Part shown: positions 17,801 through 42,270 of the stretch, piece by piece | Layout: every line of letters starts with the position of its first letter | Numbering within the stretch: the first letter of the stretch is position 1 | Virus record (IMG/VR): IMGVR_UViG_3300042503_001584 | Span: 1-45,742 of that record | Source: a virus | DNA length: 45,742 nucleotides | Strand: one strand, 5' to 3' | Notes under the pieces: model-generated | What the model was told of the DNA's origin: nothing | Database searches by the model: none | The model's input: only the letters and a program-made list of their open reading frames with translations | Translations under genes and position numbers: made by a program

Positions 17801-20800
17801 CTTCTAGTATTTGTTAAACTTCCTGTAGAAGATAGTGCTGCATTTATTACAGTTTGGACAGGGTTACTTCCAGGAGTAAACTCTGCACCAGCAGCAATAT
17901 TGATATTGTTAAATGTAATTGTTGGTACAACAAAACCTTTACCTATTCCGCCGCCAAACTGAAGTGTGGTATTATCATAATTTGCAAATTCAGTTAGAAT
18001 AGTTTTGGAAATACCAGCATTTTCAATAAATGAATCAATTGTTGTTGCACCATTTGGATTTGATACATTACCAGGAGGAATAGCACCAAATTCTCTAGGA
18101 GAAATATCAATAACTAGATAACGTGTTTCAGTAAAACCATTTCTTCTGAGTGGAAGTGATTTCTTTCTATTTGTTGCAACAGCAACATCTTCAGCTGCAC
18201 CATACTGAGTAGTAGAACTACCTGGAGTGCTCTTCAATTGAATTAACTGTGTTGGATACGCTGAGAAAGAGCCTGCTCCAAATGGATATGGATTGATTGA
18301 ATTATCAATTTCATAATTTGGATTTCTGTCAATAACGATTGAGATGTATCCTTCTTCAGAACCTCTAATAATTCCATAAATTTCTGGAATATCATATTTT
18401 GCAATTTCATCACCAAATATATCATACTGACTGAATGATACGGATGAATTTGCTGGGAGGCTAGTGGTAATATTATCAGTAAGAGTGATTACATTTCCAA
18501 CGATGGAGTCTACTCTAGTTCCAACTGGAATTAAGTTTACACCACTTGAATTTAATGATACAATCTTGTCACCACGAGAAATAGTTTCTACATTGTTTAA
18601 GGTGATTGTCTTAGTTCCTGCTGCACCACCAGATACTACAGTTTTAATGATTGCTGGCTGATAGCCACCCTCGTGCATAAATCCTTTTGGTAGGAATGTT
18701 CTTCTGGTATCTAAACACCAGTTGTATGCAAGAGTGGTAAATTCTGCACCATCTTCATTTAAGAATACTAACTTTCTCTTTCCACTGGTATATCCTGCAA
18801 GATCTAAATCTTCTACTGGGTTAGTATATGAACTCAGGTTACCATTATTAGTACTACCAGTTCTATATACAGAGATTAAGACATGCAACTCTTCAGTATT
18901 TAAGTTTGCATTCTTTCTTCTAACACTTAGTACCTTAGTTGATTTTGATAGATTTTCTACGGTTGCTTCGTCAGATAATTTAATAACTTTGCCGTTTTCT
19001 GCCAACCAATACATGGTTGTTCCAGGAATAATATACTTCCTCATTCTATCAAATTGAGCTGCTGTGAAATCAGCAGATTTTAGTACTACAACTAAATAAC
19101 GGCTATTTGATATAGATGCTGAATTTAATTCTAGATAATTAGCATTATCTGCAGTAGCATTTACAACATCTCCACTATTGATACTTGGAACTAATAGTGC
19201 CTGTACTCCAGATCCTGTTGAAACATCAGCAATAACTTCAATAGCTCCGTCAACACCAGTAGTATTATAGCTATTGATTGATGGAGTAGACTTAATTTTA
19301 TTCTTGATGTAATATGCTCTTCTTACAGTTCTTCGTGAATTTTGAAGAGTTGCATCAGAACTATAAATTGAATCTGGGATTTCACTCTTTGTAATAGCTT
19401 CATTTAGACCTAGGAAATGAGTGTTGTTGACATTAAATGAGCCATTTACACTAAGTCCTCCAGGTACATCGACGTACAATGCGTCATTACCAACACCATA
19501 CTGTGAGCTAAAACTTGGAGAACGATAGAAGTAAACACTGTCTCCTCTCTTTACAGTATCTTCTAAGTATCCACCCATTCTACCTGCAGAAGTACGAGTG
19601 CGTTCCTTTCCAGCAAATACACTACTATCTGCAACACCAGTACCATTAATTTTTACTGAGCATGGGAATTCAGTTCCATCTAGTTTGTAATATCCAGGCT
19701 TCATTAGTAATTCTAATTCATCATTAGAATTAAATCCTGAATTTTCTGCCCATTGCTTTGCTTGTGCAAATGAGAAGAGTGGGCTGAATTTCTTAACTGC
19801 TCTTCGTTCTTGAATATTTACTCCAAGAGCCTTAGAACTATATGGGTTTGGTAGGTTTTTATCGAAGTAATCTGTATCCAATGATACTGCAATAGGAACA
19901 GTTTTTTCTGCAACTTTGTATAAAATTGCATCTTCAATGTTAACCTCTTCAACTACACCCTTAGTTGGATCTAGTGGTGGAATGAATGGTGCTTCAGATG
20001 CCCATCTATCAGAAGAGAATACAAGTGTGCTACAGCCAGTGAAGAATACGTTTTTAGGATCAATTCCTGGATATAGGTTAACATAATTTGATTCAAATGT
20101 TGCTGTTGTACCTGTAGTATTGGTTCCGTCTGAAATATTTTTGGTTAATTTAAATACTGCAGTATTGGTTCCATTGTGAGAAACTTTATAGTATGCAAAA
20201 GTTGCAATTTTATATGTACCACCTTTTGGTGCTTGTCTTAAGGAAACACATCCTCTACTTGGCCACTGCTGATACTCATCTGCAGTCATTGTGATCTGAA
20301 GATCTTTATATGTTGCAGAATTCAATACGTTAATATCATTAGTATTGGTGAAGTTAGCTGCAAGTTTTGCAGTTAGATACTTAACATCTCCCTCGGATGC
20401 GTCAATACCAAATGTTCCACCTGTAGATAGAATAGAAGGATAATTTTTAACAACAGAAGTGTAAATTCCAGAGCCACAATAGCTCTTTAAGTATGTAATT
20501 AGTGGAATACCATTCTGATAATTTGAAATGATTGCACTGTTATCAGTATAATCAATTTCTTCGTATTGTAATGGAATATTGATGATTGGGTTGAAATAAA
20601 TCTTCTCTCCAGAACCATTGAGATAGAAATCGTTCACATCCAATCCATTCATTCTCATTTGAATATCAATCTTACCAAATGAAGGAATGCCAGAACTTTC
20701 AGAGAAATTGAGTTTAATTACAGCTCCAGCTTGCCAAGTTACATCATTGACTTGAGTATTAGTAAATACAATTGAATCTGCTACCTTTTTACCGTTTACA

Positions 20801-23800
20801 GATTTATATGAGTCAATAGAGTTCTGTAGATATGGTTGGATATATACTCTGTTGTTATCAAGAGTAACAGCTTGTGCAGAGATTAATTGTCTCTTGACTC
20901 TCCATGCATCAAGATATTTTGGAGAGACATATAATTTGTCATTGGTATCTGTGGAAATAAATCCAGTCTTTTCTGGTTTTGCAGCTTTTACGAAACCATA
21001 TGCATTGGTATTACCCTCAGGGAAGAATGTAGAGTTGTTAATCTCAGCTCTATCAATGTATAGTCTTTCACCGACGATCAAGTTATTGATATTTGCTTTA
21101 TCACTAACTGTGAGTTTAGTAATGTTGAAGAAGTTTGAAAGTGCTTTTAGTGCTGATTGGTTTGTGCTGCTGGTTTCTCCAGATGTTGCAGTAACATTGA
21201 TAACAGCATTAGAAATTCTGTTTTCAATATTCTCAATGTCTAGGTAATTTGACTCAGATGATCTGCGGAGTTTTGGTACGTTGAGTGTTACTGTTGAAGT
21301 TCCACCAGCTTGAATGATTTGATTTCCGATATAGAAATCTCCAGCAGAGTTAGTACCAGAAGATGCAATAAAACCGCCAGCGTTTTCATAACCCTGAGCA
21401 ATAAATTGCTCATAAATTTTAAGTACTCTTGTTTGAAGATTTGGGAAACCAGTAGAATAGTTACCAGAACCTAGACCGATATATTCCCAGGTATGTGAAG
21501 ATGCACGGAGAATAGATGGTCTGTATAGAGGTAATATTGGTGCAAAGGTTAATCCTGTGGCATTGCTGGAGCTGCTATTCTGTAGAGTGGTTGAAGTTAC
21601 AGTATATCCAGGAGCAGTTACAGGAATTCTTCTATCTATTGCATCTAAATTGACACCAAATAAATTATATTCAGATACTTTAGTTGATTCAGTAGTTACT
21701 TTTCCAGCTAGTAATTCGTTAGAAGATCCTCTACCGAATCTAAATCCTGTAGAATATACATTATAAGAAGCACTATCTGAAGTGTAACCTAAAGAGGCTA
21801 GTGTTCTTCTTGAATCCCAAGGTGAAACTGGAGCAATAAACACTCTTCCTGAGTTGTCTGGACCACCTCCAGTAGTTGCCATTGTATTACTAGATGTAAT
21901 ATATCTTAGATCTAGTGCCTGAACGAGTCTATGTACGGATTCTGCAGTTACAGAATATAGGGATGGAATATCCTTATATGGAGTGGTTGCATCATTTGAT
22001 CTATAACGTGTATAGTTTGGAACAGAAATATCTTTAATTCTATTTCCAGCTCCAATTAACTCTACCAACACACGAGAATCTGCCTGTGGTGAGTTCCAAA
22101 TTCGTTTGGTATCGTAATCTGGACCTTCTTCGTTTAGTGATGGATAGAGATAGTTTACATTGGTGAATAGTTTAGTATCTTTATCAAAATTATTTACTTC
22201 TTCAATGAAAGTACATGGGAATGTATTTCCAGAAGTAATTCCTGTTGGCCTTCTTTGAATGACTGATGGAACGTTTGTAGTAGAATCTACAAATTTATTT
22301 ACGTCAGATCTAACTACGGTTAAGTAGTATACACCATCTCTAACATCTTTCTCCCATGCAGTAACTTCTTCGACATCCCAAACCATAAATCTATAGCTTG
22401 AGTATGGCACTCCATCACTACCATTGCCAGGTCTGATACCTTTAATGATAAATCTCTTTTCTGGAGCTTTTGGAATTACGTTTGAACTTAAATATTTTGG
22501 TATAGTATACTCAACTTTCCATAGGAAATCACCAGGGCTAGATGATCTTGTATCACTATACTTCTTAACAATTAGAGTTGATGGGAAGCCAGTCTTATAT
22601 CTTAAAAGTTTTTTGGTAACTTCTTGTAGTGTGGTTGTAGCAGAACCATCACTTGCACTGTACTTAGTAACGAAATCGAATGATTTTTCCTCATTGAATG
22701 AGAACACAAAATCTTGTAGGAACTTATCTGTTTCTGCATCCGCAAAATCAAGTTTTAAATATACAGTTTTTGAATCTTCATCCCAGAAGTATCCAACTCT
22801 TTCACTGTTTTTAGTTTTTGCAGTTCCATCTGGATTTTTTGGATTATCTTCATCTGGAATTACATCAAATAATTTAACTTTTGCTTTAAATGCTGTAGCT
22901 CCACCAGCAGAATCTTCTAACTCTAGATTAATATATCTATTTGATTCTGGGGTAATTCCTGAAGTTTGATAGTAGTCTCTAAACAGTGCATACTGATTAG
23001 AAGTTCCATAAGTTAGGAATCTTTTTCTTATAGTTTGGCCAGTTGCATGATCAATTGTTTCTACAGTTAGCTCAGGAATAGTATCCTCAGTTAATCCTCC
23101 AGAAATTTCAAGATATAATTTGAAATATTTTGAACTCTGATATCCTACGAGAGAACTTTCAATAGCTGAAGTGAACTCGTCACTAATAGCTCCGACAGAT
23201 CTCCAAGTAGAATTTGCATCAATATTATAAAAACTTACGTCTGCCACCCCTGTTGAAATTCCCTTTGGAGGAATTACTGCAGTAATTCTACCTTGTGATG
23301 CAGGAGCAAATGCATTGAATTGTGATCCTTTAGCACGAAGTGAAATCTGACCGAAGTTGGAGTTGGAGTTGGTGATAGACATATCACCACCAGTTTCAGC
23401 CAAGAATTGATCTGCATATCCAACTGCGAACACAGATACTACCTGGATGAATCCACCGTTGGATGCTTTGATGTGGAAGTGTCTGCACTCTGGCTTATAT
23501 TCTGCATCTGGATCTGCAAAAACTGGTGGGTTTGCAGTAGATTCTACATCATCATTGTATAGAGTTGTATTGTTAGGAGAAGGAGTTACATTGGTATCTC
23601 CTTGTAGATCCTTAGGTTGAATGAATACGTTTCTGTCTTTTTGTAGAGAAATTCCAGTAAACTGTGCAACAACCATGGACTTAAAGCTGTTCTCAGCAAC
23701 TTTACTACCATCAGTATGCATACCGCACATACCAAAGGTAGAACGTAGTGAACAGTTAAAGATGTATGGTGAGCAAGAATTAACAGTATCAATAGTGCTA

Positions 23801-25560
23801 TTCTTACTGCCATCACCAACAATAGTAAATTCTTCTGGTCTTACTTGAGATGGATCAGAAACTCTTCCCTGCCACGCATCAATTTTTTTATAATACTGTT
23901 CTAGTTCACCATCAGTTGTTCTTTGGTCTGCATATGTAAATGCAACAACTCTATGGTGAGAATATTTTGAGTCTGTGGTTGAACTAAAGGTAGGAATTCC
24001 GTTGGAATCAAACGCAGCACCATTGTAAATTGGTTTTATTGCAGTTGCTGCAGCATCTTTAAAGGTCATCTGCCAGAAATAGCATCCACCAGTTACTTTA
24101 AAGATGGAAGTCTGATTAAAGATTCCCTGAGTTTTTCTGAGTTTTACATTTGCAGTACCACCACCAACTAGAGTAACGGTAATAGCTTCTCTAGTATAAT
24201 CATCTGGATTGTTTAGAATACCAGTTGCAATTCCACCAAGTGTAGCAACTGCATTAACTACAGTAGAGCAATCTCCATCAGAAACGTATCCATTTCCTGC
24301 AGAAAAAGCAAGTCTATTGATAGTTTTTCCTGATGTAATCTCGGAGTATGTAATACTATTATCATTGTAAGATTTTACAATGAATCTCATGACACTAACT
24401 GCATGATTAAATGCAGCTACGGTTGCAGCAATTTCCTGAGATACATCAGTATCATTGCTCTTCATGAATTGGGTTCTATATCCATTACCATCAATATAAT
24501 ATTCAGCATTATTAAATGTATTCTCGTTTCCACCTTGTCTTAGGTCTGTGCAAATTGCATCAATAAAATATCCAATATCACGAATACATAGGGCTTTCTG
24601 TGCCTCGGTTAGTCCACTTTGATATGCACTTTGATTAGCTTCTAGATATAATTTTGTTTGCTCTTGAATATATCCACGATTCTTCTCGATCATATTTGCA
24701 CCATCATACATCACATGTGATAGTGCATATCCATCTCCAGTTAAACTTCCGTCAGTGGAGAATGGAGCTGGAACATATTTTGGTCTGATTACAGTTTTTC
24801 TGAGGTCATATCCAACAATAGAAGTACCTCTAGGTACAATAACCCCACCATTTCTTGGGTTAAATCTAAATGACTCATTATCAATAGTTGCTGTAGTACC
24901 TACTGTTAATGGGTTTGTAGTTACATCATATCCTGGTCTGTTATCAATCTCATATTGACCAGGAAGCACCATGATAGTGAATGCTTCAAACTTATCATTG
25001 TTTAGAGTTACTTGTCCGGTGGTTCCTGCAGTTGCTTGTGCAGTAGAAATAAATGAAACACCTACAGTATTTGAAGATGCACCAATAGACACAAAATCAG
25101 TATTTCCTACACTGGTGATTGTATATGCCTTTCCAACTTCTAATGTAGATGCATTTATTACTGCTGGATTTGCTTTATAACTTCTCTTAGCCGCCTCTAT
25201 TAATGCTCTTTCAATAGTCTTGAATGGTCTGTTTAAATTGCCCCCGTCATTAGCTTCTGCATCGGTGGCATTTAAATCAGCCTGGTTTACATATAAAGTA
25301 ATATTTTCTGCACCTTCAAAGTTTGGATTGGTTCCACCTAGAACAGTGTTGTTTCCGGTGATAATAGTTCCATCTGCCTTGAAAGTTAATCTAGGCTGTC
25401 CTGCAGTAGAAATGGATAACTCATTTGTACCAGATTCGTAAATACCAGTCTGAGGACTATTTTCAAAACTAATTGCTGGAGCCGCAGGTGTATTGTTACT
25501 ATCGAATACAATCTTTACGCCTTCCGCAATACCACCAGAAGTAATTCTAGTTAGAGCCAT
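11836..25560 (-). CDS. Giant virion structural protein (4574 aa), beta-helix-rich
   Basis: This single uninterrupted frame of 4574 codons fills 13.7 kb. Residues 39-64 (TGIYESGTNELSISTAGQ) share the fibre-entry module found in the short fibre gene. Residues 85-125 and 190-260 (LYVN..., RPFKTIERALIEAAK, IMVLPGQYEID) match the opening turns of right-handed beta-helix, pectate-lyase-like phage adhesins. An inserted module (about 134-186, VGKAYTITSVGNTDFVSIG) interrupts the helix. A second beta-helix-like entry lies near residue 1900 (LLMKPGYYKLDG). The remainder is Ser/Thr/Asn/Gly/Tyr-rich beta sequence. No signal peptide or protease motif was recognised. TATAAATA lies about 32 nt upstream of the ATG and AGG 7 nt upstream. 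It is probably a very long tail fibre or adhesin. Confidence 0.85.
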   Translation of the reverse strand: MALTRITSGGIAEGVKIVFDSNNTPAAPAISFENSPQTGIYESGTNELSISTAGQPRLTFKADGTIITGNNTVLGGTNPNFEGAENITLYVNQADLNATDAEANDGGNLNRPFKTIERALIEAAKRSYKANPAVINASTLEVGKAYTITSVGNTDFVSIGASSNTVGVSFISTAQATAGTTGQVTLNNDKFEAFTIMVLPGQYEIDNRPGYDVTTNPLTVGTTATIDNESFRFNPRNGGVIVPRGTSIVGYDLRKTVIRPKYVPAPFSTDGSLTGDGYALSHVMYDGANMIEKNRGYIQEQTKLYLEANQSAYQSGLTEAQKALCIRDIGYFIDAICTDLRQGGNENTFNNAEYYIDGNGYRTQFMKSNDTDVSQEIAATVAAFNHAVSVMRFIVKSYNDNSITYSEITSGKTINRLAFSAGNGYVSDGDCSTVVNAVATLGGIATGILNNPDDYTREAITVTLVGGGTANVKLRKTQGIFNQTSIFKVTGGCYFWQMTFKDAAATAIKPIYNGAAFDSNGIPTFSSTTDSKYSHHRVVAFTYADQRTTDGELEQYYKKIDAWQGRVSDPSQVRPEEFTIVGDGSKNSTIDTVNSCSPYIFNCSLRSTFGMCGMHTDGSKVAENSFKSMVVAQFTGISLQKDRNVFIQPKDLQGDTNVTPSPNNTTLYNDDVESTANPPVFADPDAEYKPECRHFHIKASNGGFIQVVSVFAVGYADQFLAETGGDMSITNSNSNFGQISLRAKGSQFNAFAPASQGRITAVIPPKGISTGVADVSFYNIDANSTWRSVGAISDEFTSAIESSLVGYQSSKYFKLYLEISGGLTEDTIPELTVETIDHATGQTIRKRFLTYGTSNQYALFRDYYQTSGITPESNRYINLELEDSAGGATAFKAKVKLFDVIPDEDNPKNPDGTAKTKNSERVGYFWDEDSKTVYLKLDFADAETDKFLQDFVFSFNEEKSFDFVTKYSASDGSATTTLQEVTKKLLRYKTGFPSTLIVKKYSDTRSSSPGDFLWKVEYTIPKYLSSNVIPKAPEKRFIIKGIRPGNGSDGVPYSSYRFMVWDVEEVTAWEKDVRDGVYYLTVVRSDVNKFVDSTTNVPSVIQRRPTGITSGNTFPCTFIEEVNNFDKDTKLFTNVNYLYPSLNEEGPDYDTKRIWNSPQADSRVLVELIGAGNRIKDISVPNYTRYRSNDATTPYKDIPSLYSVTAESVHRLVQALDLRYITSSNTMATTGGGPDNSGRVFIAPVSPWDSRRTLASLGYTSDSASYNVYSTGFRFGRGSSNELLAGKVTTESTKVSEYNLFGVNLDAIDRRIPVTAPGYTVTSTTLQNSSSSNATGLTFAPILPLYRPSILRASSHTWEYIGLGSGNYSTGFPNLQTRVLKIYEQFIAQGYENAGGFIASSGTNSAGDFYIGNQIIQAGGTSTVTLNVPKLRRSSESNYLDIENIENRISNAVINVTATSGETSSTNQSALKALSNFFNITKLTVSDKANINNLIVGERLYIDRAEINNSTFFPEGNTNAYGFVKAAKPEKTGFISTDTNDKLYVSPKYLDAWRVKRQLISAQAVTLDNNRVYIQPYLQNSIDSYKSVNGKKVADSIVFTNTQVNDVTWQAGAVIKLNFSESSGIPSFGKIDIQMRMNGLDVNDFYLNGSGEKIYFNPIINIPLQYEEIDYTDNSAIISNYQNGIPLITYLKSYCGSGIYTSVVKNYPSILSTGGTFGIDASEGDVKYLTAKLAANFTNTNDINVLNSATYKDLQITMTADEYQQWPSRGCVSLRQAPKGGTYKIATFAYYKVSHNGTNTAVFKLTKNISDGTNTTGTTATFESNYVNLYPGIDPKNVFFTGCSTLVFSSDRWASEAPFIPPLDPTKGVVEEVNIEDAILYKVAEKTVPIAVSLDTDYFDKNLPNPYSSKALGVNIQERRAVKKFSPLFSFAQAKQWAENSGFNSNDELELLMKPGYYKLDGTEFPCSVKINGTGVADSSVFAGKERTRTSAGRMGGYLEDTVKRGDSVYFYRSPSFSSQYGVGNDALYVDVPGGLSVNGSFNVNNTHFLGLNEAITKSEIPDSIYSSDATLQNSRRTVRRAYYIKNKIKSTPSINSYNTTGVDGAIEVIADVSTGSGVQALLVPSINSGDVVNATADNANYLELNSASISNSRYLVVVLKSADFTAAQFDRMRKYIIPGTTMYWLAENGKVIKLSDEATVENLSKSTKVLSVRRKNANLNTEELHVLISVYRTGSTNNGNLSSYTNPVEDLDLAGYTSGKRKLVFLNEDGAEFTTLAYNWCLDTRRTFLPKGFMHEGGYQPAIIKTVVSGGAAGTKTITLNNVETISRGDKIVSLNSSGVNLIPVGTRVDSIVGNVITLTDNITTSLPANSSVSFSQYDIFGDEIAKYDIPEIYGIIRGSEEGYISIVIDRNPNYEIDNSINPYPFGAGSFSAYPTQLIQLKSTPGSSTTQYGAAEDVAVATNRKKSLPLRRNGFTETRYLVIDISPREFGAIPPGNVSNPNGATTIDSFIENAGISKTILTEFANYDNTTLQFGGGIGKGFVVPTITFNNINIAAGAEFTPGSNPVQTVINAALSSTGSLTNTRSYNDRLFASLVSTGGTVSNLTLYASINTSTGAITQIWAYRNSSSQAVTINGSFKIQVNDGRGFILSPTGRTVSLSDNQLSADDFKIVAKQNLLSAIATTPDTTGTGASPYLDYVGKKASGPGAGVDDDALTARGKKIFLSWPYAYRALRRRFPSAGFPVNGNYQSSLISVNALPGSGFTLNLTGVTIGAQSPASEAANTFGGGYRGGLLKCRGAKLTLNGTRFRGNLSLDWTGLFSGTTGRAGGSFIAGHSIEMFQMEDQNELTQLGGTLPAYSISTSPVDEEFRTLSEYNPLSNIYLEPSKDPYGRLSDGDARTFPINTLQAIRRFNRSSSAVTPWAGESPIAAGGLLTKVALNERYQTPYKIYYNAPSGNPTSDYIPSSAGNTSAVLFRWNDGSTTITDPAQLSMPTTVVSYAQLEAKTLSFFYAANEFGEDIIKNIFVGKNATKFVKFDNIETTYATAIRVFTYGETFNIDPSTGAVTQSLSGAYKFAKISYSGSFAVLSKSNGTKIDLNVNYLSSIRYNYVATTTSRYQKTILGTNSRLILSQDDNITRYSEPANLSVSNITSAFTIPNATRSTIYELRNITRNTAVSGKVVLSTNSSGILTSLDILSFGSGHIKNDVFAIYSGATKISNAFTLTVRENYNEETLELFENGEFKVILPKNCFIVNSIENPSAAVNLKSEILKAKTIFKPGGYILYNGIYYKIAVNNSTNNSPYIGVYRYINETNTSDVRADIVVMLEDDEYTITYPSNTRFDVFDYDNILDYWPSTGRITIGNRETCDFQKSGNSSDPKGYELRLTRSMTKYWPHYIRDWEGLDPNNASDATVTVDTVIPTSITLADPVDVTCYGLKRINAGGTGNNIESVTYGGSSTYVTPTGIVTNKLAKISISSTTNAQGLLADFEKLSIGQTVTIPYRDISKADATTNSATNWNRVEIVVGDQQNIAGTNISSNREGDRRISGNISFRHGSAKQVYYKHTYNIHANNTHDTAVYNYVNPLASANLSSGRDSSVDEIHPAGFRRWGYLGARSIQDANAGQTAITIGSEFVRSMQRICSYATFTATFTTIDNATDPYERIMTVSAVTAGAINKGQPIYATLTGSHPSGTYTNLIGYVVGMDGDSFTTATSTGYEDSINLTGNGGTGTYRILLVETPPTLTTEMTVYGQRLDRDWLYYAPNNCCWQRQVEYKVVNSDNTTTVYLSGNLNDPDGGRGPGDTPPGDGSSSTVSIPAGSNIVFYYYNYYDNSIILTLDKPLLQAIPEGTKFNIAPTVDYGYNNSYGHPGKGENNSFLFKSRILDLDKDGTNGKINVYLADPFPIANWQRDSNGNLLADNSTTTSPIKTFGMMYINHGGWTYPKTGGSAFRANNIKLADANVSDSVFCDAIYVPNRSGRVRAGDQLSYTWEDIYRIQATTDINCRITAVTTSKEITLDAPASGTDERKFVQQNILPGYIMYTADGTELGTVASVSATTITLVENSKAATTTNASWKFTTTGRTYTYSTQIFTVDPPSTDSNNAYFGYSRCTISSGATHILHNGYREGFRPNWYTIQDIFVSHRLGNFTNDGPITRKFIYSDTGVKLTFGEYRIWYENYTNYIKGNDNSTGQEMSGRQGWVGNFGLSASGQRTIGIQLNGASAIQWGRQYNRSVWLSAVPVHAKWESAAYSPYMIQSDSSGTIENNYAPSTLTNYDGTGKYIFSVLNHTSLPTGSIYASQNTGDYSSFGGDSYDTKQYQFISSNTRLKYSLQNGAVSASGSVSGGTSSRLSEQFAVNTVINYRPCISTTFARQNQTLSISINSGSSTITGTNIALTLLPGDVVYSDQSPSPTSFVGVVRSKGANDNEVTLSQPYTGTTLSADTAWSYISPRVMHSTTAGAGVVAGQSLIFSGDSATDVTPTNVGTVGYNVIGNTRPGYNRYNIRFNIDRRVYNQSTLINTYTNIRPVESYDVANRVIDIKFGDLATYVSPLMNIEVTRFNPKTHVESSISVVGQSLHI

Positions 25561-25592: not shown

Positions 25593-25600
25593 TATTTATA
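25593..25600 (-). promoter_or_regulatory. T4-type late promoter TATAAATA
   Basis: A perfect T4 late octamer on the minus strand lies 32 nt upstream of the giant gene's ATG and just past the speD stop codon. This spacing gives a leader of about 25 nt. gp33, the late co-activator, is encoded in the same window. Confidence 0.75.
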
Positions 25601-25950: not shown

Positions 25951-25979
25951 AGTATAAAGGATAACTTATTTATTACCAA
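25951..25979 (-). promoter_or_regulatory. Candidate sigma-70 promoter for speD
   Basis: TTGGTA-N17-TATACT on the minus strand. The -10 is close to consensus and the -35 matches at four of six positions. Initiation would be only a few bases before the TTG start, giving a nearly leaderless mRNA. It overlaps the late octamer AATAAATA. Confidence 0.4.
25967..25974 (-). promoter_or_regulatory. Candidate late promoter for speD
   Basis: AATAAATA on the minus strand fits the NATAAATA cyanophage late motif and lies 25 nt upstream of the speD TTG start codon. Confidence 0.5.
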
Positions 25980-35903: not shown

Positions 35904-36092
35904 TTACAACGATGTTGTTGTTTTATTTTTAAGATTCTCTTCTTCAATGTAATCTACCAACATTTGTACATATATCTCTCTTTCCCAGGGAAGCATATTT
36001 TCAATTTCCGAAAGAGCCCATTTATGATGTTGAAGTAATATAAAATTAATTCTGAAGAAATTTTCTAGCGACTCATGTGCTAGGGCTATGCG
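35904..36092 (-). CDS. gp51: gp51-like C-terminal extension, reached by -1 frameshift from gp26
   Basis: This 62-codon frame runs from CGC at 36090-36092 to TAA at 35904-35906 and encodes RIALAHESLENFFRINFILL through WALSEIENMLPWEREIYVQML. It has no ATG, GTG or TTG before the internal ATG of ENMLPW, about 33 codons in. It is entered precisely by a -1 slip on T_TTT_TTC at the end of gp26, which would give a 297-residue gp26-51 fusion. In T4, gene 51 (baseplate hub assembly catalyst) follows and overlaps gene 26. The helical, acidic, aromatic character fits a tail-assembly chaperone. Translation as an independent small protein from the internal ATG is possible but would lose half the frame. Confidence 0.75.
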   Translation of the reverse strand, partial: RIALAHESLENFFRINFILLQHHKWALSEIENMLPWEREIYVQMLVDYIEEENLKNKTTTSL

Positions 36093-36098
36093 AAAAAA
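36065..36098 (-). promoter_or_regulatory. Programmed -1 frameshift site
   Basis: The slippery heptamer T_TTT_TTC (36092-36098, minus strand) lies in the zero frame of gp26 across codons Ser233-Phe234-Phe235, three codons before the TAG. A small stem CTAGC-N9-GCTAG (36065-36083) begins 8 nt downstream of it, the usual distance for a stimulatory structure. After the slip, reading continues into the gp51-like frame. Confidence 0.7.
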
Positions 36099-36796
36099 GA
36101 CGCAAGACCCTCCAATACAACATCACTTTCAACATTAGTTACTGGGTTAGTAACTTTAACTGTATGAGATAATTTTGGCATAGTCTCAAAGAATTTTTGA
36201 ATTAACAGAAACTGAGCCGTGTCTAAACTATCTAGAAAATCATTAATTTCCTTTTTGCTGAAACTCTTTGTTTCATATACATCTTCACCTTCTACAACCT
36301 GTTCAATACAAGATGCTGCAATTTCAAATACATCTTCAGTTTTTGCATTGGCAGTGAAGTTTGTTTTAACAAACATCTCCATGCTAGGATATTTCATTAC
36401 AACAGAAATAGTATCATTCAATGAAATAATTCTAGAGTGGTCTTCAGATTTTTGAACTTTAATATCTTCAACATTGAGTTCAAGAGGAACTGTAGTTTCT
36501 CCATCATCTGGACATGTAATATTTAAATCAATCTGTTCTCCAACAGACTTTGCACGAATATTGAGAAACAAATACTCAATATCAAATACAGCAAGATCAT
36601 CAACTTTAATTTTAGATACAATGCAATTCTTTAAAATAGTTTTTACTGCATTGATCATTTGATTTTCATCTTCAGATTCCATAGCCATGAGAAGAACTTT
36701 CTCTTCTTTTACTAGGAATGGTCTGTATTTAATTAGTTGATCAGTTGATGGTAAACGCAATTCATACGTCGGAGTTACAATTTTTGGTAAAGGCAT
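36086..36796 (-). CDS. gp26: Baseplate hub/tail-assembly protein gp26
   Basis: This 236-residue protein (MPLPKIVTPTYELRLPSTDQLIKYRPFLVKEEKVLLMA) has the typical start of the T4 baseplate gp26 family: the phrase KYRPFLVKEEKVLL, then a cysteine-containing segment FLNIRAKSVGEQIDL and NITCPDDGE. T4 gp26 is 208 residues. The C-terminus (LEGLASFFA) is encoded over a T_TTT_TTC slippery heptamer, so a fraction of ribosomes may extend into the gp51-like frame. In long-tailed phages such chaperone pairs lie immediately before the tape measure, as here. CCTAAATA, one base from the late octamer, lies at 36824-36831 upstream. Start: ATG at 36796, with no strong Shine-Dalgarno sequence. Confidence 0.82.
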   Translation of the reverse strand: MPLPKIVTPTYELRLPSTDQLIKYRPFLVKEEKVLLMAMESEDENQMINAVKTILKNCIVSKIKVDDLAVFDIEYLFLNIRAKSVGEQIDLNITCPDDGETTVPLELNVEDIKVQKSEDHSRIISLNDTISVVMKYPSMEMFVKTNFTANAKTEDVFEIAASCIEQVVEGEDVYETKSFSKKEINDFLDSLDTAQFLLIQKFFETMPKLSHTVKVTNPVTNVESDVVLEGLASFFA

Positions 36797-36826
36797 AGTG
36801 AATACTATAATATAATCTAAAATTAT

Positions 36827-37648
36827 TTAGGTAATGTCAGTCCAAGATTTTGTTATTCTGGTAGAGTTTTCTCCAGTCTGAGATGATGGTACTGCAAGTT
36901 CATATTCAAACGTAACCTGAACTTTTACCAATTGAGAGGATCCACTTGATAATGGTATTGCTGATATAGTTGTTGGGAATGCATTTCTCAATCTAACTGA
37001 GTATGTTGCAAATGGTTTACCAAATCCAGAAATATACTTAAGTCCAGAGTCTGGAATAATTTCATCAATATTATAGAAGTTAGATTGATAGTCTGTTTGA
37101 GCAGTTTTTAGTCTAGTATTTTTTCTACTACTTCTATTCCTCTCAAGTTTAATTATAATTATATCACAACAATAGTCATCTCTATATCTAGTTCTACCCA
37201 AATCAACACTTTGATTCATATTAATGTTTGTGTTTATCGTATTTGTACCTGACAATGAAACACCAGTATAAATGTAATTGCCCCAGGCATCAAAAATTCT
37301 TCTAATTTCAGAATCTGCATCAGAGATAAATGAAACGGTAATTTCATTGTTTACAATTCCATATGCATATTTCATCGTAGGAGTATTGGTAATTCTATAA
37401 TCTCCTGTAGAAATAGAATACCCAGGGATGGTACACTCATCTGCATATACTCTCATGAGTCCTTGCATATAGGATTCATCATTATTATTTACATCTCCGG
37501 TCATGCCAAGAGTAAATAAATTTTTCAATAATTGACTTTCGTTAACAAGTTCAAATTGAATATCATAAAAATTACTCAGAGAAAAACCATATCTCTGTAC
37601 ATAGCTCCTAAATTGTTTAAAATTTTTAGGAATCGGATTAATACTCAT
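36827..37648 (-). CDS. gp54: Baseplate-tail tube junction protein, gp54-like
   Basis: This is a 273-residue protein. The segments VYADECTIPGYSISTGDYRIT, TVSFISDADSEIRRIFDAWGNYIY and the C-terminal QVTFEYELAVP follow the strand order of tail-tube-fold proteins (gp19/gp54/gp48 family). Size and position in the tail-hub operon favour gp54, the tube initiator (320 residues in T4), over the major tube protein. An ATGA overlap couples it to the preceding gene. An AATAAATA octamer lies inside the upstream gene at 37758-37765 and could give a separate late transcript, but AT-rich chance matches are common. Another tube paralogue remains possible. Confidence 0.55.
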   Translation of the reverse strand: MSINPIPKNFKQFRSYVQRYGFSLSNFYDIQFELVNESQLLKNLFTLGMTGDVNNNDESYMQGLMRVYADECTIPGYSISTGDYRITNTPTMKYAYGIVNNEITVSFISDADSEIRRIFDAWGNYIYTGVSLSGTNTINTNINMNQSVDLGRTRYRDDYCCDIIIIKLERNRSSRKNTRLKTAQTDYQSNFYNIDEIIPDSGLKYISGFGKPFATYSVRLRNAFPTTISAIPLSSGSSQLVKVQVTFEYELAVPSSQTGENSTRITKSWTDIT

Positions 37649-38208
37649 CTACTACTATCTCCCCAGACAAAGGATTTATTAACTCGTTTGTATGATCCTT
37701 TCTGCCTACTCACGAAACTCTCCAACGGCAGAAAGATAGACTTCATCCAATCTTCACTATTTATTTTAAAAAGCGGTGTATCAAGACCTTCATAAACATA
37801 ATTATGAAAGCACTGTTTTGGAATTGTTGGTCGTCCATCTTGAATGCTTTGCAGTACTTTGTATCTAGTTGGAAGATTTAGATAATGTAAATTTGCTCCA
37901 AAAAATTTCTTTCCACCTTGCAACATATAAACCAATGGAAATTCATCATAATATGGAAGTTTTTTTGCCCAGGTTGCACTGTATTCAAACAGATAAAGAT
38001 TTCCTCCAGATGGAATTAATGTCTCATCTAAAGTTACAAGTGTTTTATAGATATCATTTCTTCTTGCAACTTCAGCAACTGTATCTTTATACCAGCTATA
38101 GGATAGGGCATAGAATCCACGTCTTTTTTTATTTGCTATCTCATCTACTTGTTGAAATATATTTAACTGAGGTTGATTTTTAGTCCTTGCCGATACTTCT
38201 CTTCTCAT
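37645..38208 (-). CDS. Conserved protein of unknown function (187 aa)
   Basis: This is a 187-residue protein with a basic start (MRREVSARTKNQPQLNIFQQVDEI), a helical middle (SYSWYKDTVAEVARRNDIYKTL) and a beta segment LPYYDEFPLVYMLQGGKKFFGANLHYLN that looks well conserved in style. The C-terminus is basic (SRQKGSYKRVNKSF). ATGA overlaps tie it to gp4 upstream and the gp54-like gene downstream, so it belongs to the head-completion/tail-hub operon. It may be a hub component or a DNA-end protein like T4 gp28 or gp2, but I do not recognise either sequence here. Confidence 0.6.
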   Translation of the reverse strand: MRREVSARTKNQPQLNIFQQVDEIANKKRRGFYALSYSWYKDTVAEVARRNDIYKTLVTLDETLIPSGGNLYLFEYSATWAKKLPYYDEFPLVYMLQGGKKFFGANLHYLNLPTRYKVLQSIQDGRPTIPKQCFHNYVYEGLDTPLFKINSEDWMKSIFLPLESFVSRQKGSYKRVNKSFVWGDSSR

Positions 38209-38642
38209 ACCTTTAACTCCGATTCTGTGAGTACTTTAAATTTCCACATTCTATCTTCACAGAATTGTTTAGCTGCCTCCCATTTTGCTTGATTCTTTAA
38301 GTATTCAGTCACTTCATAGATGTAGCTTTTAGTTTGTCTCTGAGGTTTCTTGGGAGGAACAGTTTGTTTACTTGGCTTTATCTCAATCAAATACTTAACA
38401 ACAGTACCATCACTCTCTTGAATTTTGACATAAAAATCCACAAAATATCTATGGATTCGATTGTCTAATGGAGATCTATATGGAACGACTATCTCTTCTG
38501 ATGCCCATTCCAACACATTTGGTCTAGTGTCACAGTACTTCATGAACTTCAATTCCCATGAAGACCTGTAAATTATATTACTATAATCTCCTTTGTATTT
38601 GCGAATATTTTTGGGAACAAATTTTCCCTTTAAAGTATTCAT
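38205..38642 (-). CDS. gp4: Head completion protein gp4 (TnsA-like nuclease fold)
   Basis: This 145-residue protein is close to the 150 residues of T4 gp4. The segment IIYRSSWELKFMKYCDTRP, followed by WASEEIVVPYRSPLD, HRYFVDFYVK and YLIEIKPSKQT, is the TnsA/PD-(D/E)XK-like arrangement. Likely active residues are the Glu of SSWE, the Asp of FVDF, and Glu/Lys of IEIKP. gp4 finishes filled heads before tail joining. The first gene of its operon, it diverges from gp48 across a 35-nt gap. CATAAATA lies 30 nt upstream of the ATG and overlaps the gp48 start codon. No convincing Shine-Dalgarno sequence is seen. Confidence 0.85.
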   Translation of the reverse strand: MNTLKGKFVPKNIRKYKGDYSNIIYRSSWELKFMKYCDTRPNVLEWASEEIVVPYRSPLDNRIHRYFVDFYVKIQESDGTVVKYLIEIKPSKQTVPPKKPQRQTKSYIYEVTEYLKNQAKWEAAKQFCEDRMWKFKVLTESELKV

Positions 38643-38647
38643 AAATA
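38640..38647 (+). promoter_or_regulatory. Candidate late promoter for gp48-gp53
   Basis: CATAAATA on the plus strand fits the NATAAATA late octamer, ends exactly 30 nt before the gp48 ATG and overlaps the gp4 start codon. A TTTAAA-N17-TATAAT pair (38629-38657) is an alternative host-type promoter in the same place. Confidence 0.55.
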
Positions 38648-38672
38648 CTTTTATAATAGGCGTATCATAAAA

Positions 38673-38680
38673 TATTTATG
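38673..38680 (-). promoter_or_regulatory. Candidate late promoter for the gp4 operon
   Basis: CATAAATA on the minus strand ends exactly 30 nt before the gp4 ATG and overlaps the gp48 start codon. It is the mirror image of the plus-strand element. Confidence 0.55.
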
Positions 38681-39688
38681 GGAGCTGCTAGTAAAAGTTA
38701 TAACAGTGAATATCAAAAAGGCCAATTTGGCAAGGATTTATATTGGCCCGATAAACAATATATGTTTGATATGTTGAAGATGGACATATTAGAGTATGTA
38801 CCAATATCAAAGGCAGTGTCTACCAATGCTGCAACAGAATTTACTGCATTGACTGATATTCAAAGTGTGGATACCGTATACAATATAGTAGATGGTGTCC
38901 GAAAACCTAGTGGACAAAGAAAACCACTGAATACAATTTTACTTCCAGTTCCAAATGACATCAATTATTCGGATCAATTAGATTGGTCAACTAACAATGC
39001 GGGAATTCTTGGAAAAATGCTACCTGCATTGGCTGGTGCAGCTGCAAGTGGTCAAGGAGATGTGGGTGCATTAATTTCAAAAACAGCTCGTGGCGGAATT
39101 CCAGAATTTTTACTTAGTACAATTAAAGCTCTTCCTGGCCCCATGCAGCAAATATCATCAGAATCATTGACCCAAGGAATTGGCGGTAAAATTCTAAACC
39201 CATATGTTGAACAAATATTCAAAGGAATTGGAATGAGAGAATTTAATTTCTCATGGAAACTTGTTCCTAGAAATTCATCAGAACAATCAAAAATTCACAA
39301 TATCATTAAAGCTTTACGATATTACTCACTACCAAATTATAGTACAGCTGGGGTAATAGATACAAGTACTGATCCAGCATTCCAAAATTTTGAAGATGCA
39401 GTAAATCTAAAAGACAGATGGTTAACAGTTCCAAATGTATTTAAATTGACTTGGATGCAAGCAGACACTGGAGTGGAGATACAATCTCTACCAAAAATAA
39501 AGCCTTGTGTATTAAAAAATATTCAAGTTAACTATACGCCAGATAACGTATGGGCAACACATATTAATACTAGTGGAGAGGGATTAAGTGGTCCGTCTCC
39601 AATTGCATATAATATAACTATATCATTTGCAGAAACAGAAATTATTACTGGCCATGAAGTTATTTCAGGAACAGATGGGGGATACTAA
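38678..39688 (+). CDS. gp48: Baseplate tail-tube cap protein gp48
   Basis: This 336-residue protein is near the 364 residues of T4 gp48. The N-terminus MGAASKSYNSEYQKGQFGKD leads to LLPVPNDINYSDQLDW, a signature of gp48-type caps in cyanophages. A Gly/Ala-rich helical insert follows (about 110-170). The C-terminal tube-like domain contains GMREFNFSWKLVPRNSSEQSKIHNIIKALR, PNVFKLTWMQ and PIAYNITISFAETEIIT. It caps the baseplate where tail-tube polymerisation starts. Only this gene and gp53 lie on the plus strand, driven by a late-type octamer. No good ribosome binding site is visible; the nearest AGG is 17 nt away. Confidence 0.82.
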   Translation: MGAASKSYNSEYQKGQFGKDLYWPDKQYMFDMLKMDILEYVPISKAVSTNAATEFTALTDIQSVDTVYNIVDGVRKPSGQRKPLNTILLPVPNDINYSDQLDWSTNNAGILGKMLPALAGAAASGQGDVGALISKTARGGIPEFLLSTIKALPGPMQQISSESLTQGIGGKILNPYVEQIFKGIGMREFNFSWKLVPRNSSEQSKIHNIIKALRYYSLPNYSTAGVIDTSTDPAFQNFEDAVNLKDRWLTVPNVFKLTWMQADTGVEIQSLPKIKPCVLKNIQVNYTPDNVWATHINTSGEGLSGPSPIAYNITISFAETEIITGHEVISGTDGGY

Positions 39689-39690
39689 AA

Positions 39691-40347
39691 ATGTTTTTTA
39701 ACGCACAACCAAATTTTTACTATCCATACAAAAGTGGTTTAAAATTATCTAAAAATTTATTTCGTAGAGTTAGATTTAGAGATAATCTTAATGCACTTTA
39801 CGTAGCATCCACAAGATATACTGTTCAGCAAGGAGAAACTCCAGAACAAATTTCAAACAAAGTATATGGTTCACCAGATTGGTATTGGTCAATATTATTG
39901 ATCAATAATATCATTGATATGAATAACGATTGGCCATTATCAGATTATGAATTAGATACTTCAATTGAAAACAAGTATGGCAATGAGCAAGATAAAATTC
40001 GATTTTGGGAAACCAAACAAATTTTTGAAGGAAATAATCTTGTGTTGCAAGGTGGAATAATTATAGAGTATAATCAGAGCACTACAAATCAACAAGTGCC
40101 TGGGTATTATCCTCCAACATATACATTCCGTCAACCCAATGGAACTCTGTTAACTGGTTCTCAAGTCATGACTCCGATCACAAACAGAGAATTTGAGTAC
40201 AGAGAAAACGAAAAGAAAAAAGAAATATTTTTAATTCGACCATCATTCCTGACTACTATGGAAGAAGAGATTAATACCTTATTCGCATATGATACCGATT
40301 ATAAAATTGATTCTGCTGGAGTTAGATTCTCCGAAACTGAGCTATAA
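39691..40347 (+). CDS. gp53: Baseplate wedge protein gp53
   Basis: This 218-residue protein compares with 196 in T4. Residues 43-73 (YTVQQGETPEQISNKVYGSPDWYWSILL) form the LysM-like segment characteristic of gp53, and FRRVRFRD precedes it. The C-terminal half has KKKEIFLIRPSFLTTMEEEI. gp53 binds the wedge and is needed to join six wedges around the hub. It starts 2 nt after the gp48 stop with GGGGGA upstream, so the two are co-translated. It ends 5 nt before a strong hairpin whose T-run serves the convergent gp32 gene. Confidence 0.85.
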   Translation: MFFNAQPNFYYPYKSGLKLSKNLFRRVRFRDNLNALYVASTRYTVQQGETPEQISNKVYGSPDWYWSILLINNIIDMNNDWPLSDYELDTSIENKYGNEQDKIRFWETKQIFEGNNLVLQGGIIIEYNQSTTNQQVPGYYPPTYTFRQPNGTLLTGSQVMTPITNREFEYRENEKKKEIFLIRPSFLTTMEEEINTLFAYDTDYKIDSAGVRFSETEL

Positions 40348-40376: not shown

Positions 40377-41273
40377 TCAATCTTCTTCAGCTAGTCGAGC
40401 AAAGTAACTTAGAGTATCATCTTCGTCGTCACTGCTGGTAGAACGTGAAGAGAATGAAGGAGTAGCACTAGCAGCAAAGGATTCTACTGTGGTGGATTCT
40501 TCGTCTTCATAAGTCTCACGATCAATACGTTGAGTTGGACGTGAGTTTAGAACATCAGTCAGACGTTTTTGAAGTTCTTCATAAGTTTTGAAGTTATCTC
40601 CAGAAGTAAATTGAACTAGGCTATGAGTCTTAGAATAGATCTGCTCTAGTCGATCATCATCAAAATTGCCAAGTGTACTAGGGCTAGAGAACTCAGACTT
40701 GTCATAGTTCCAGTAACCTTCAACTTTACGAAGCTTGATTTTAAAATCAGCACCACCCCAGAAGTCGAATGGATTCATGGGAGTTTCATCTGCAAATGCA
40801 GGTTGCATAGCTTCAGTGATTTTATCAAAGATCTTTTTGCCAAACTTGTAAAGGAATACTTTACCTTCGTTTTCTGGATGAGCAGGATCTGTTACAACGT
40901 AAATGTTGGTGTAGTAGGATAGCTTACGTTTTTGCTTGCGGGCAACTTCTTTGTCTTTCTCGCTGCCGCTATTCCAGAGTTGACGATTGAGATCTCCTAC
41001 AGGATCTTTCTGGTTGAGAGTGGTTAGAGAGTTCTCGATATACCAACCACCAGGACCTTGGAAAGCATGACTCCATACCTTTGCCCAGGGAACATCTTCA
41101 CCTTCGGGGGCTGGGAGGAATCGGATTACAGCATAACCATTACCTGACTTGTCCATCTCAGGCTTCCAAAACCTTTCATCAGCACCACCTTCAGTGGCTG
41201 ACATCTTTTCGATTTCTTGAGTTAGCTTTTCAAAAGAATTGTTTGAATTACGCTTTAGTGTTGCAAAAGACAT
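40377..41273 (-). CDS. gp32: Single-stranded DNA-binding protein gp32
   Basis: This 298-residue protein (301 in T4) coats single-stranded DNA during replication, recombination and repair. The N-terminus MSFATLKRNSNNSF carries a basic cooperativity motif. The OB-fold core includes FWKPEMDKSGNGYAVIRFLPAP, KLSYYTNIYVVTDP and GKVFLYKFGKKIFDKI. The C-terminus is acidic (SSDDEDDTLSYFARLAEED), as expected for partner binding. The protein contains no cysteine, so the zinc site of T4 gp32 is absent; WYIENSLTTLNQKDP stands in that place. GGAG lies 7 nt before the ATG. A TTGACA-type promoter upstream and a strong terminator downstream make it an independent, highly expressed unit. Confidence 0.93.
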   Translation of the reverse strand: MSFATLKRNSNNSFEKLTQEIEKMSATEGGADERFWKPEMDKSGNGYAVIRFLPAPEGEDVPWAKVWSHAFQGPGGWYIENSLTTLNQKDPVGDLNRQLWNSGSEKDKEVARKQKRKLSYYTNIYVVTDPAHPENEGKVFLYKFGKKIFDKITEAMQPAFADETPMNPFDFWGGADFKIKLRKVEGYWNYDKSEFSSPSTLGNFDDDRLEQIYSKTHSLVQFTSGDNFKTYEELQKRLTDVLNSRPTQRIDRETYEDEESTTVESFAASATPSFSSRSTSSDDEDDTLSYFARLAEED

Positions 41274-41683: not shown

Positions 41684-42270
41684 TAGTTTTTAACCTTTGA
41701 CAAAAGTATCTGCTTATATTTAGGTTTGTCCACGGAAAGGAATGGTTCGTATTTCACGACCTTCTTTTTTATTCCTGGCCAAACCAAAGGATCAACAATG
41801 GTAGTATCAAAATCTTTGATAAAGTTTAACAATTGATTAAGAATAACCAGTGTTTCTATAGATATTGAATTGGATAGATACTTCTTCAATAATGGAGGAT
41901 GAGTAGATGTAACTTTGAAGATATCTTCAAAGCTATTATCATTGAGTAAAGTATCTACATCATTTGCAAATACAAAACTCATACTCTGAATTTTTTTAAT
42001 CCATTCAGTATACACAGAAGTATTCTGTAATTTGTAGATATCCCCAATCCAAGTATCTTCATTCTGCACAAAATGGGATACAAAATATTGTATCAATTCT
42101 TCTTGATTAAATTTTGTGCCTAGCTTTTTAAAAAAATATTTGTCCCTTCGTTTTTCAAAAGATTGAAGGGTAGTTCTTGTCTTTCCGTTAAAGATAAAAT
42201 AGTTGTAGCTATCTGATGTAAAGTGTAATTTTATTGCGAGATAAAGTTTATAAACTTCAAATCCATTCAT
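41683..42270 (-). CDS. gp59: Loader of gp41 helicase, gp59
   Basis: This 195-residue protein (217 in T4) places the gp41 helicase on gp32-coated forks. The start MNGFEVYKLYLAIKLHFTSDSYNYFIFNGK is the well-known gp59 signature, followed by a basic helical region (KRRDKYFFKKLGTKF) and the C-terminal STHPPLLKKYLSNSISIETLVILNQLL. It overlaps gp33 upstream by ATGA and DUF1825 downstream by one base. gp59 next to gp33 is the T4 arrangement. Confidence 0.88.
   Translation of the reverse strand: MNGFEVYKLYLAIKLHFTSDSYNYFIFNGKTRTTLQSFEKRRDKYFFKKLGTKFNQEELIQYFVSHFVQNEDTWIGDIYKLQNTSVYTEWIKKIQSMSFVFANDVDTLLNDNSFEDIFKVTSTHPPLLKKYLSNSISIETLVILNQLLNFIKDFDTTIVDPLVWPGIKKKVVKYEPFLSVDKPKYKQILLSKVKN

Follow-up and report, generated by a model that had tools for sequence, protein, structure and literature searches.

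The virus record IMGVR_UViG_3300042503_001584 (a marine T4-like phage; 45,742 bases, probably a fragment; this whole stretch is called the window below) carries the genes of the head closure protein gp4 and of the baseplate tail tube cap gp48 on opposite strands, separated by a gap of 35 nucleotides (nt). We suggest that this gap very probably holds two facing late promoters of the phage T4 type, each embedded in the start codon of the opposite gene, and that their use would be mutually exclusive. The octamer CATAAATA occurs on both strands of the gap (Table 1). Exactly 30 nt separate each copy from the ATG of its own gene (38648-38677 and 38643-38672), and the CAT of each copy is the complement of the opposite gene's ATG. 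These coordinates confirm the original prediction, made from the letters of the window, that the octamer is present on both strands, 30 nt before its own ATG and overlapping the opposite start codon.

Two further parts of that prediction need to be reworded. The two equal 30-nt distances, which had been read as a mirror symmetry, are real, but their equality follows from each octamer ending level with the start codon of the other gene; they are therefore one fact about one arrangement and provide no independent second line of evidence. The promoters had also been described as divergent, with transcripts pointing outward. The genes do diverge, but the promoters face each other: the + strand octamer lies on the left and fires to the right, the − strand octamer lies on the right and fires to the left, and the predicted 5′ ends overlap.

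Conservation of the facing octamers at gp4

To place the gap among its relatives, loci were gathered by protein searches and by two pattern scans, one with CATAAATA-N18-38-TATTTATG and one with a convergent control pattern, the loci of the control pattern being excluded. The 277 loci that contained gp4 plus at least 400 nt upstream formed 114 clusters at 90% gp4 identity, each treated as one lineage. A partner start was found in 112 of them, and 109 lineages are left without the motif-fetched loci, including the two clusters that have no partner start and are counted as lacking both motifs. A mechanical rule set the partner start: at a distance of 10-80 nt, the first start codon that opens a frame of 70 or more codons was taken, which yields a few odd gaps (range 10-73).

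Among the 112 lineages, [AC]TAAATA was directed at the partner gene in 93 and at gp4 in 106, and it was present on both strands in 88. The corresponding means of 200 dinucleotide shuffles were 14.4, 5.5, and 0.6, with maxima of 27, 12, and 3. Restricting the set to the 109 protein-fetched lineages gave 88 partner-directed, 101 gp4-directed, and 83 double occurrences. The loss of one octamer in most relatives, which had been named beforehand as the observation that would speak against the prediction, was thus not found, since both motifs are kept in these 83 lineages. Both were also kept far from the seed proteins (46 of 71 lineages below 75% identity, 27 of 44 below 65%) and in 19 of the 27 lineages that came from one protein search alone.

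The layout persists across a change of the partner gene. The partner is the tail tube gene in 53 of the 83 two-motif lineages and gp48 in 30, the tail-tube identity having been checked by family for three proteins (phrog_45). The original pairing of gp4 with gp48 thus holds for the window and for these 30 lineages, but the tail tube takes the place of gp48 in the larger group. The distance from octamer to gene has lineage medians of 30 and 28 nt, the gap has a median length of 36 nt over lineages, and the length of the spacer between the octamers has an interquartile range of 20-25. Over 123 same-length pairs with 40-85% gp4 identity, sequence identity was 85% for the 5 nt beside the gp4 start, 66.5% for the 5 nt beside the partner start, 48.8% for the inner spacer, and 54.3% for gp4 third codon positions.

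It is the placement of the octamer, not its count, that exceeds chance. CATAAATA is not enriched across the window (4 found vs. 5.35 expected), and ATAAATA is depleted (15 vs. 24.2). The pattern scans listed 120 matches each, so that only fractions are compared: open reading frames (ORFs) of at least 60 amino acids started in both octamers in 16 of the 120 listed matches of the facing pattern, 15 of which involve gp4, and in 0 of the 120 listed matches of the convergent control. In 14 long relative records (1.59 Mb), selected by length from the loci already collected, the facing pattern in either variant was found in 10, always at the gp4 gap, one such gap being matched twice by overlapping matches. 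Only two extra places were hit, both in one record (G013) and neither between divergent genes, and the reversed control pattern gave one place. A chance origin in AT-rich DNA was rejected on the basis of the shuffles together with the convergent control pattern.

The octamers as probable late promoters

The octamer of T4 late promoters spans positions −13 to −6, with a poorly conserved position −13, and the variant CTAAATA serves phage Aeh1 (PMC1524935). On both strands of the gap, CATAAATA fits this 8-bp box when its loose −13, or the variant CTAAATA, is allowed for. Furthermore, NATAAATA is described as the late promoter form of the cyanophages S-PM2 and Syn9 (PMC2984593).

The octamers also sit where late promoters should sit, that is, upstream of virion genes, at a promoter-like distance, and on the sense strand only. 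At 763 other gene starts of the relatives, the stretch 15-80 nt upstream contained ATAAATA on the sense strand in 56 cases and CTAAATA in 67, compared with 0 and 1 on the antisense strand and 3 and 9 in an equal stretch inside the gene. Such a preference for the sense strand is what a promoter predicts, and it supports the promoter reading. The distances to the start of 766 other genes, with mechanically set starts, fill the 5-nt bin of 25-29 nt most (38 matches); matches also cluster at 5-9 nt and beyond 100 nt. The window has 26 late-type octamers, the majority of them not near a start, and besides the pair in the gap four lie 25-33 nt before − strand starts (Table 1). A motif specific to the lineage, with phages using either the A or the C variant throughout, was considered and rejected, as both variants stand at other genes in 5 of 8 gap classes, including the four largest.

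The proteins of late transcription are present as well, with the coactivator gp33 encoded in the window and the sigma factor gp55 and the sliding clamp gp45 in relatives. The window gp33 is 56% identical to the Syn9 gp33-like protein over 77 residues, and the closest named phages for the window gp32 are Synechococcus cyanophages (67%). The window's own gp55 and gp45 are not visible because the window is a fragment. In the four long relative records in which they were sought, gp33 was found in all four and the gp45 clamp domain in two, the same two giving a sigma region 2 match below the cut-off; the remaining two records are shorter and may be fragments. In one of the two records with the sigma match, the 172-kb record of lineage L009, the 156-amino-acid frame is a late sigma factor, gp55 (phrog_234, E value 2.3e-67). 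We therefore retain the original view of the octamers as late promoters, with which the motif, its distance, its strand-specific use, and the late-transcription proteins agree: both look like T4-type late promoters, with predicted start sites and putative recognition by gp55.

The possibility that TATTTATG is a signal for translation start and not part of a promoter is barely conceivable. TATTT immediately precedes the start codon of both gp4 and gp48 in the window, as this explanation would have it, but it never occupies that position at the 763 other starts of these relatives, and the motif is set apart from the start codon in the other main group (TATTTAGAGTG). Triplets resembling a ribosome site were seen before the partner start in 59 of 106 lineages and before the gp4 start in 13 of 106.

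Points against the proposed arrangement and alternative explanations

Several observations weigh against a conserved pair of such promoters in the gp4 gap. Three of the protein seeds had themselves been found through the motif, a bias that the identity cuts address in part only. The double motif is absent from 26 of the 109 lineages, the partner-directed motif being missing in 21 and the gp4-directed motif in 8. The gp4 tree requires at least 12 changes between the state with both motifs and the state without, together with at least 3 changes of the partner gene (48 of its 106 inner branches are unresolved). The 83 lineages are not 83 independent cases, because they share ancestry, and the shuffles leave common descent uncorrected. 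The strict facing pair was missing from 10 of the 22 named phages read at the gp4 gap; S-WAM1, OLIVR6, PhiW-14, and RL38J1 have no motif there, the last three having gp4 without a divergent neighbor in the annotation. In Vibrio phage D483, the gp4/gp48 gap contains both motifs in back-to-back order, the reverse of facing. In addition, the whole gap folds better than its shuffles over 106 lineages (mean z of −1.2 on both strands, 28% below −2), and the + strand of the window has a sigma-70-like pair ending in TATAAT (38652-38657), at the level expected by chance (1.6 sites in that stretch).

The partner-directed motif is lost more often than the gp4-directed one, and it could be asked whether the latter alone is a real promoter and the former a by-product or a decayed copy. 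The unequal counts in the 109 lineages point that way, as do six lineages with CATATATA and four with CATACATA in the partner-directed position and the phages Sf-CH8 and S-T4, which have the gp4-directed motif only. However, the 88 partner-directed motifs are far above the shuffles, even at their maximum, and the two-gene run of gp48 and gp53 in the window has no other [AC]TAAATA on the + strand within 120 nt upstream of its two starts, so we consider this explanation improbable. In the six lineages with CATATATA (L036, L040, L048, L051, L059, and L068), the partner-directed octamer is followed by GCTAT or GCTATA and the gp4-directed octamer is still CATAAATA; it seems that just one of the two promoters was altered in this group.

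A facing pair of octamers is also an inverted repeat, which might act as an RNA or DNA hairpin (a stability, antisense, or cruciform element). The 41-nt segment of the window does fold well (z of −3.5 on the + strand and −5.4 on the − strand), in line with the folding of the whole gap in the lineages. The motifs alone can cause folding better than that of shuffles, and when the motifs are kept constant, the inner spacers contribute hardly any or no pairing (mean z of 0.1 and −0.25 in 29 gp48 lineages, −0.65 and −0.48 in 53 tail-tube lineages). The predicted transcripts would begin between the arms and so contain no 5′ arm. At other genes the motif stands alone, and in many lineages the first base of the arms is mismatched (CATAAATA with TATAAATA in 17, the reverse in 7). 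A hairpin function is thus very unlikely. No terminator-like site was found in the gap. The RNA hairpin, striking in the window alone, was rejected because its inner pairing is not kept in relatives once the motifs are fixed.

It is still less credible that a host sigma-70 promoter (TTTAAA-17 nt-TATAAT, 38629-38657, + strand) drives gp48 and that the octamers are an AT-rich coincidence. The hexamers match the consensus at 10 of 12 positions, but their number is that of chance, and TATAAT is present in 2 of 15 aligned gaps (the window and lineage L018), compared with the octamer in 15 of 15, the 15 having been picked from octamer-bearing lineages.

Geometry and expected mutually exclusive use

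We propose that gp55 would recognize both octamers and that activation would proceed through gp33 and the gp45 sliding clamp. RNA would start near 38653 from the gp48-directed octamer and near 38667 from the gp4-directed octamer, so the predicted leaders are 25 nt each, and the predicted RNAs share 15 complementary bases and each cross the opposing promoter. The spacer predicts overlapping RNA starts in 82 of the 83 two-motif lineages. In a late promoter the bubble covers −12 to +2, and the clamp occupies the upstream end (PMC7892883). The bubbles of the window would then lie at about 38641-38654 and 38666-38679 with just 11 bp between them, so close that a polymerase bound to one promoter would be expected to cover the other. 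An elongating polymerase from each promoter would, moreover, have to traverse the opposing one. Coverage and traversal together lead us to expect that initiation is mutually exclusive on each DNA copy, and simultaneous use of the two promoters is unlikely on steric grounds. As for the original suggestion of a balance between head-completion and tail-cap output, the pair might conceivably provide it. The many DNA copies of late infection would supply both gene sets.

Why the promoters are interlocked is a different question. The tight layout is most simply explained by compaction, because the promoters lie 25-33 nt from their genes as elsewhere in the window, the gap is short, and position −13 accepts the C of CAT. 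Compaction without regulatory coupling is fully possible, and we see an even chance that the two are ordinary late promoters that work independently of each other and simply share a short gap, with negligible interference because many template copies are present in late infection. In agreement with this, each promoter stands at a distance common elsewhere, the spacer is unconserved in sequence and variable in length, and the facing pair of T6 and CC31 does not overlap the start codons. On the other side stand the facing order, kept in 83 of 109 lineages despite the partner changes on the gp4 tree, and the predicted overlap of the starts; neither is decisive, as compaction explains both too.

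Returning to mutually exclusive use, a further step can be considered. In T4, the nick-bearing strand sets the polarity of activation by the clamp, and the primer-template junction must lie downstream of the target promoter (PMC2988020); under this rule, the orientation of the clamp would determine in which direction a facing pair is read. The gap might thus act as a direction-reading switch: a gp45 clamp on DNA activates late transcription in a single polarity, given by the strand that bears the 3′ end, and clamp orientation, and hence the local direction of the fork or nick, would decide on each DNA copy whether head closure or tail cap genes fire, and the facing layout would stop both gene sets from firing together. 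We regard such a switch as unlikely; if it did exist, head and tail output would be tied to the direction of replication.

The arrangement matters in several respects. In many marine relatives, in Syn9 and P-SSM2, and in relatives of T4 such as T6 and CC31, gp4 has a tail gene opposite it behind facing late promoters, although this gene may be gp48, the tail tube gene, or gp53. If the exclusion is true, the gap offers a natural conserved template with two promoters for the clamp-polarity rule, testable in an existing purified system. With position −13 being loose, a promoter can have bases in common with a start codon, a point of relevance for the annotation of gene starts in compact phage genomes; indeed, two named records had gp4 starts that concealed the layout.

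Features of the window

The features discussed are collected in Table 1. gp48 and the gp53-like gene form a two-gene rightward run, the next gene (40377-41273) being on the − strand.

Table 1. Positions of the facing octamers and of related features in the window
Feature	Position	Strand	Remarks
Octamer CATAAATA directed at gp48	38640..38647	+	CAT complementary to start codon of gp4
Octamer CATAAATA directed at gp4	38673..38680	−	CAT complementary to start codon of gp48
Predicted overlap of the two 5′ ends	38653..38667	both	Inferred with the octamer taken as −13 to −6, T4 numbering (PMC1524935)
gp4, head closure/completion, 145 amino acids	38205..38642	−	phrog_218, E value 1.6e-60; start codon 38642-38640; leads leftward run
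gp48, baseplate tail tube cap, 336 amino acids	38678..39688	+	phrog_230, E value 1e-63
Baseplate wedge subunit (gp53-like)	39691..40347	+	phrog_232, E value 4.9e-49
DNA end protector (gp2-like), downstream of gp4	37645..38208	−	phrog_429, E value 4.6e-32
Octamer CCTAAATA	36824..36831	−	27 nt before ORF start 36796, baseplate hub, phrog_150
Octamer TATAAATA	25593..25600	−	32 nt before start of the 4574-amino-acid ORF, 25560
Octamer AATAAATA	25967..25974	−	25 nt before ORF start 25941
Octamer CCTAAATA	41717..41724	−	33 nt before ORF start 41683, phrog_468, function unknown
gp33, late-transcription coactivator, 87 amino acids	42267..42530	−	PF16805, E value 9.7e-28; phrog_254, E value 3e-30

Two of the further octamers precede genes worth mentioning. 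The 4574-amino-acid ORF (11836-25560, − strand), whose ATG is preceded by TATAAATA, has no Pfam match. The other, AATAAATA, stands before the TTG start of an S-adenosylmethionine decarboxylase gene (PF02675; 25606-25941, − strand) located between virion genes; S-adenosylmethionine decarboxylase genes are typical of cyanophages. A Thy1-type thymidylate synthase gene (PF02511; 44718-45380, − strand) lies in the replication block adjoining PhoH and gp33. Near the end of the fragment, TCTAAATA occurs three times on the − strand (20-27, 307-314, and 558-565), and these copies may precede genes cut off by that end.

The gene blocks on the two sides of the gp4 gap are swapped between the window (36086-40347) and P-SSM2. 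The window has gp48 and gp53 opposite gp4, with the genes of the tail tube and hub on the downstream side of gp4. P-SSM2 has its tail tube and hub genes opposite gp4, and gp48 downstream.

Comparison with named phages and known promoter systems

The 12 of 22 named phages with the strict facing pair are S-SRM01, S-CREM1, P-SSM2, S-CAM22, Sf-FP1, ACG-2014j, ACG-2014f, Syn9, Syn1, T6, CC31, and AB-Navy97. In ACG-2014j and Syn1, the pair was read by eye with the gp4 start re-derived by homology; the annotated gp4 start of both differs from the homology start, and the latter restores the facing layout. phiMAM1 has a variant, ATTAAATA facing CCTAAATA. A single motif was found in four phages, directed at gp4 in Sf-CH8 and S-T4 and at the partner in PMBT1 and K447.

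Late promoters and facing promoters are each known, whereas the conserved interlocked pair at gp4 is undescribed in the literature searched: the titles and abstract openings covered contain no description of facing late promoters at gp4. The bidirectional promoters of E. coli stimulate divergent transcription, the commonest distance between their starts being 18 bp (Warman et al. 2026, PMC12825309), and resemble the gap in that short symmetric DNA serves two directions. The window differs from them in that its promoters face each other, the RNAs predicted from these have 15 nt in common and run through the opposing promoter, and the sigma factor comes from the phage; the order of the octamers does not predict divergent starts with outward RNAs around a shared symmetric core. 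Convergent promoters are subject to transcriptional interference, in which a polymerase from each can occlude the other (PMC6593788). The window differs from this case as well, since its genes diverge and the promoters lie inside the 35-nt gap.

The closest likeness is to the late promoters of T4 (TATAAATA, read with gp55, gp33, and gp45), with which the octamers share the 8-bp box, the lack of a −35 element, the loose −13, and the use of both strands. The T4-type system is matched further by the position 25-33 nt before genes and by the presence of gp33 in the window and of gp55, gp33, and gp45 in a relative. The cyanophage late promoter has the same motif, and the gp4/gp48 gap of Syn9 has CATAAATA facing TCTAAATA; the motifs are described upstream of genes, not as facing pairs, in the part of PMC2984593 that was covered. 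T6 and CC31 have TATAAATA facing AATAAATA between gp4 and gp53, only 7 nt apart. Their octamers lie inside the gap without start-codon overlap and, as judged by eye, are flanked on the outer sides by ribosome-site-like sequences; no overlap is predicted between their RNAs. The octamers of the window, in contrast, are 25 nt apart and interlocked with the start codons. The pair of T6 and CC31 therefore suggests that promoters came to face each other at gp4 before the interlocked form existed, or did so on more than one occasion.
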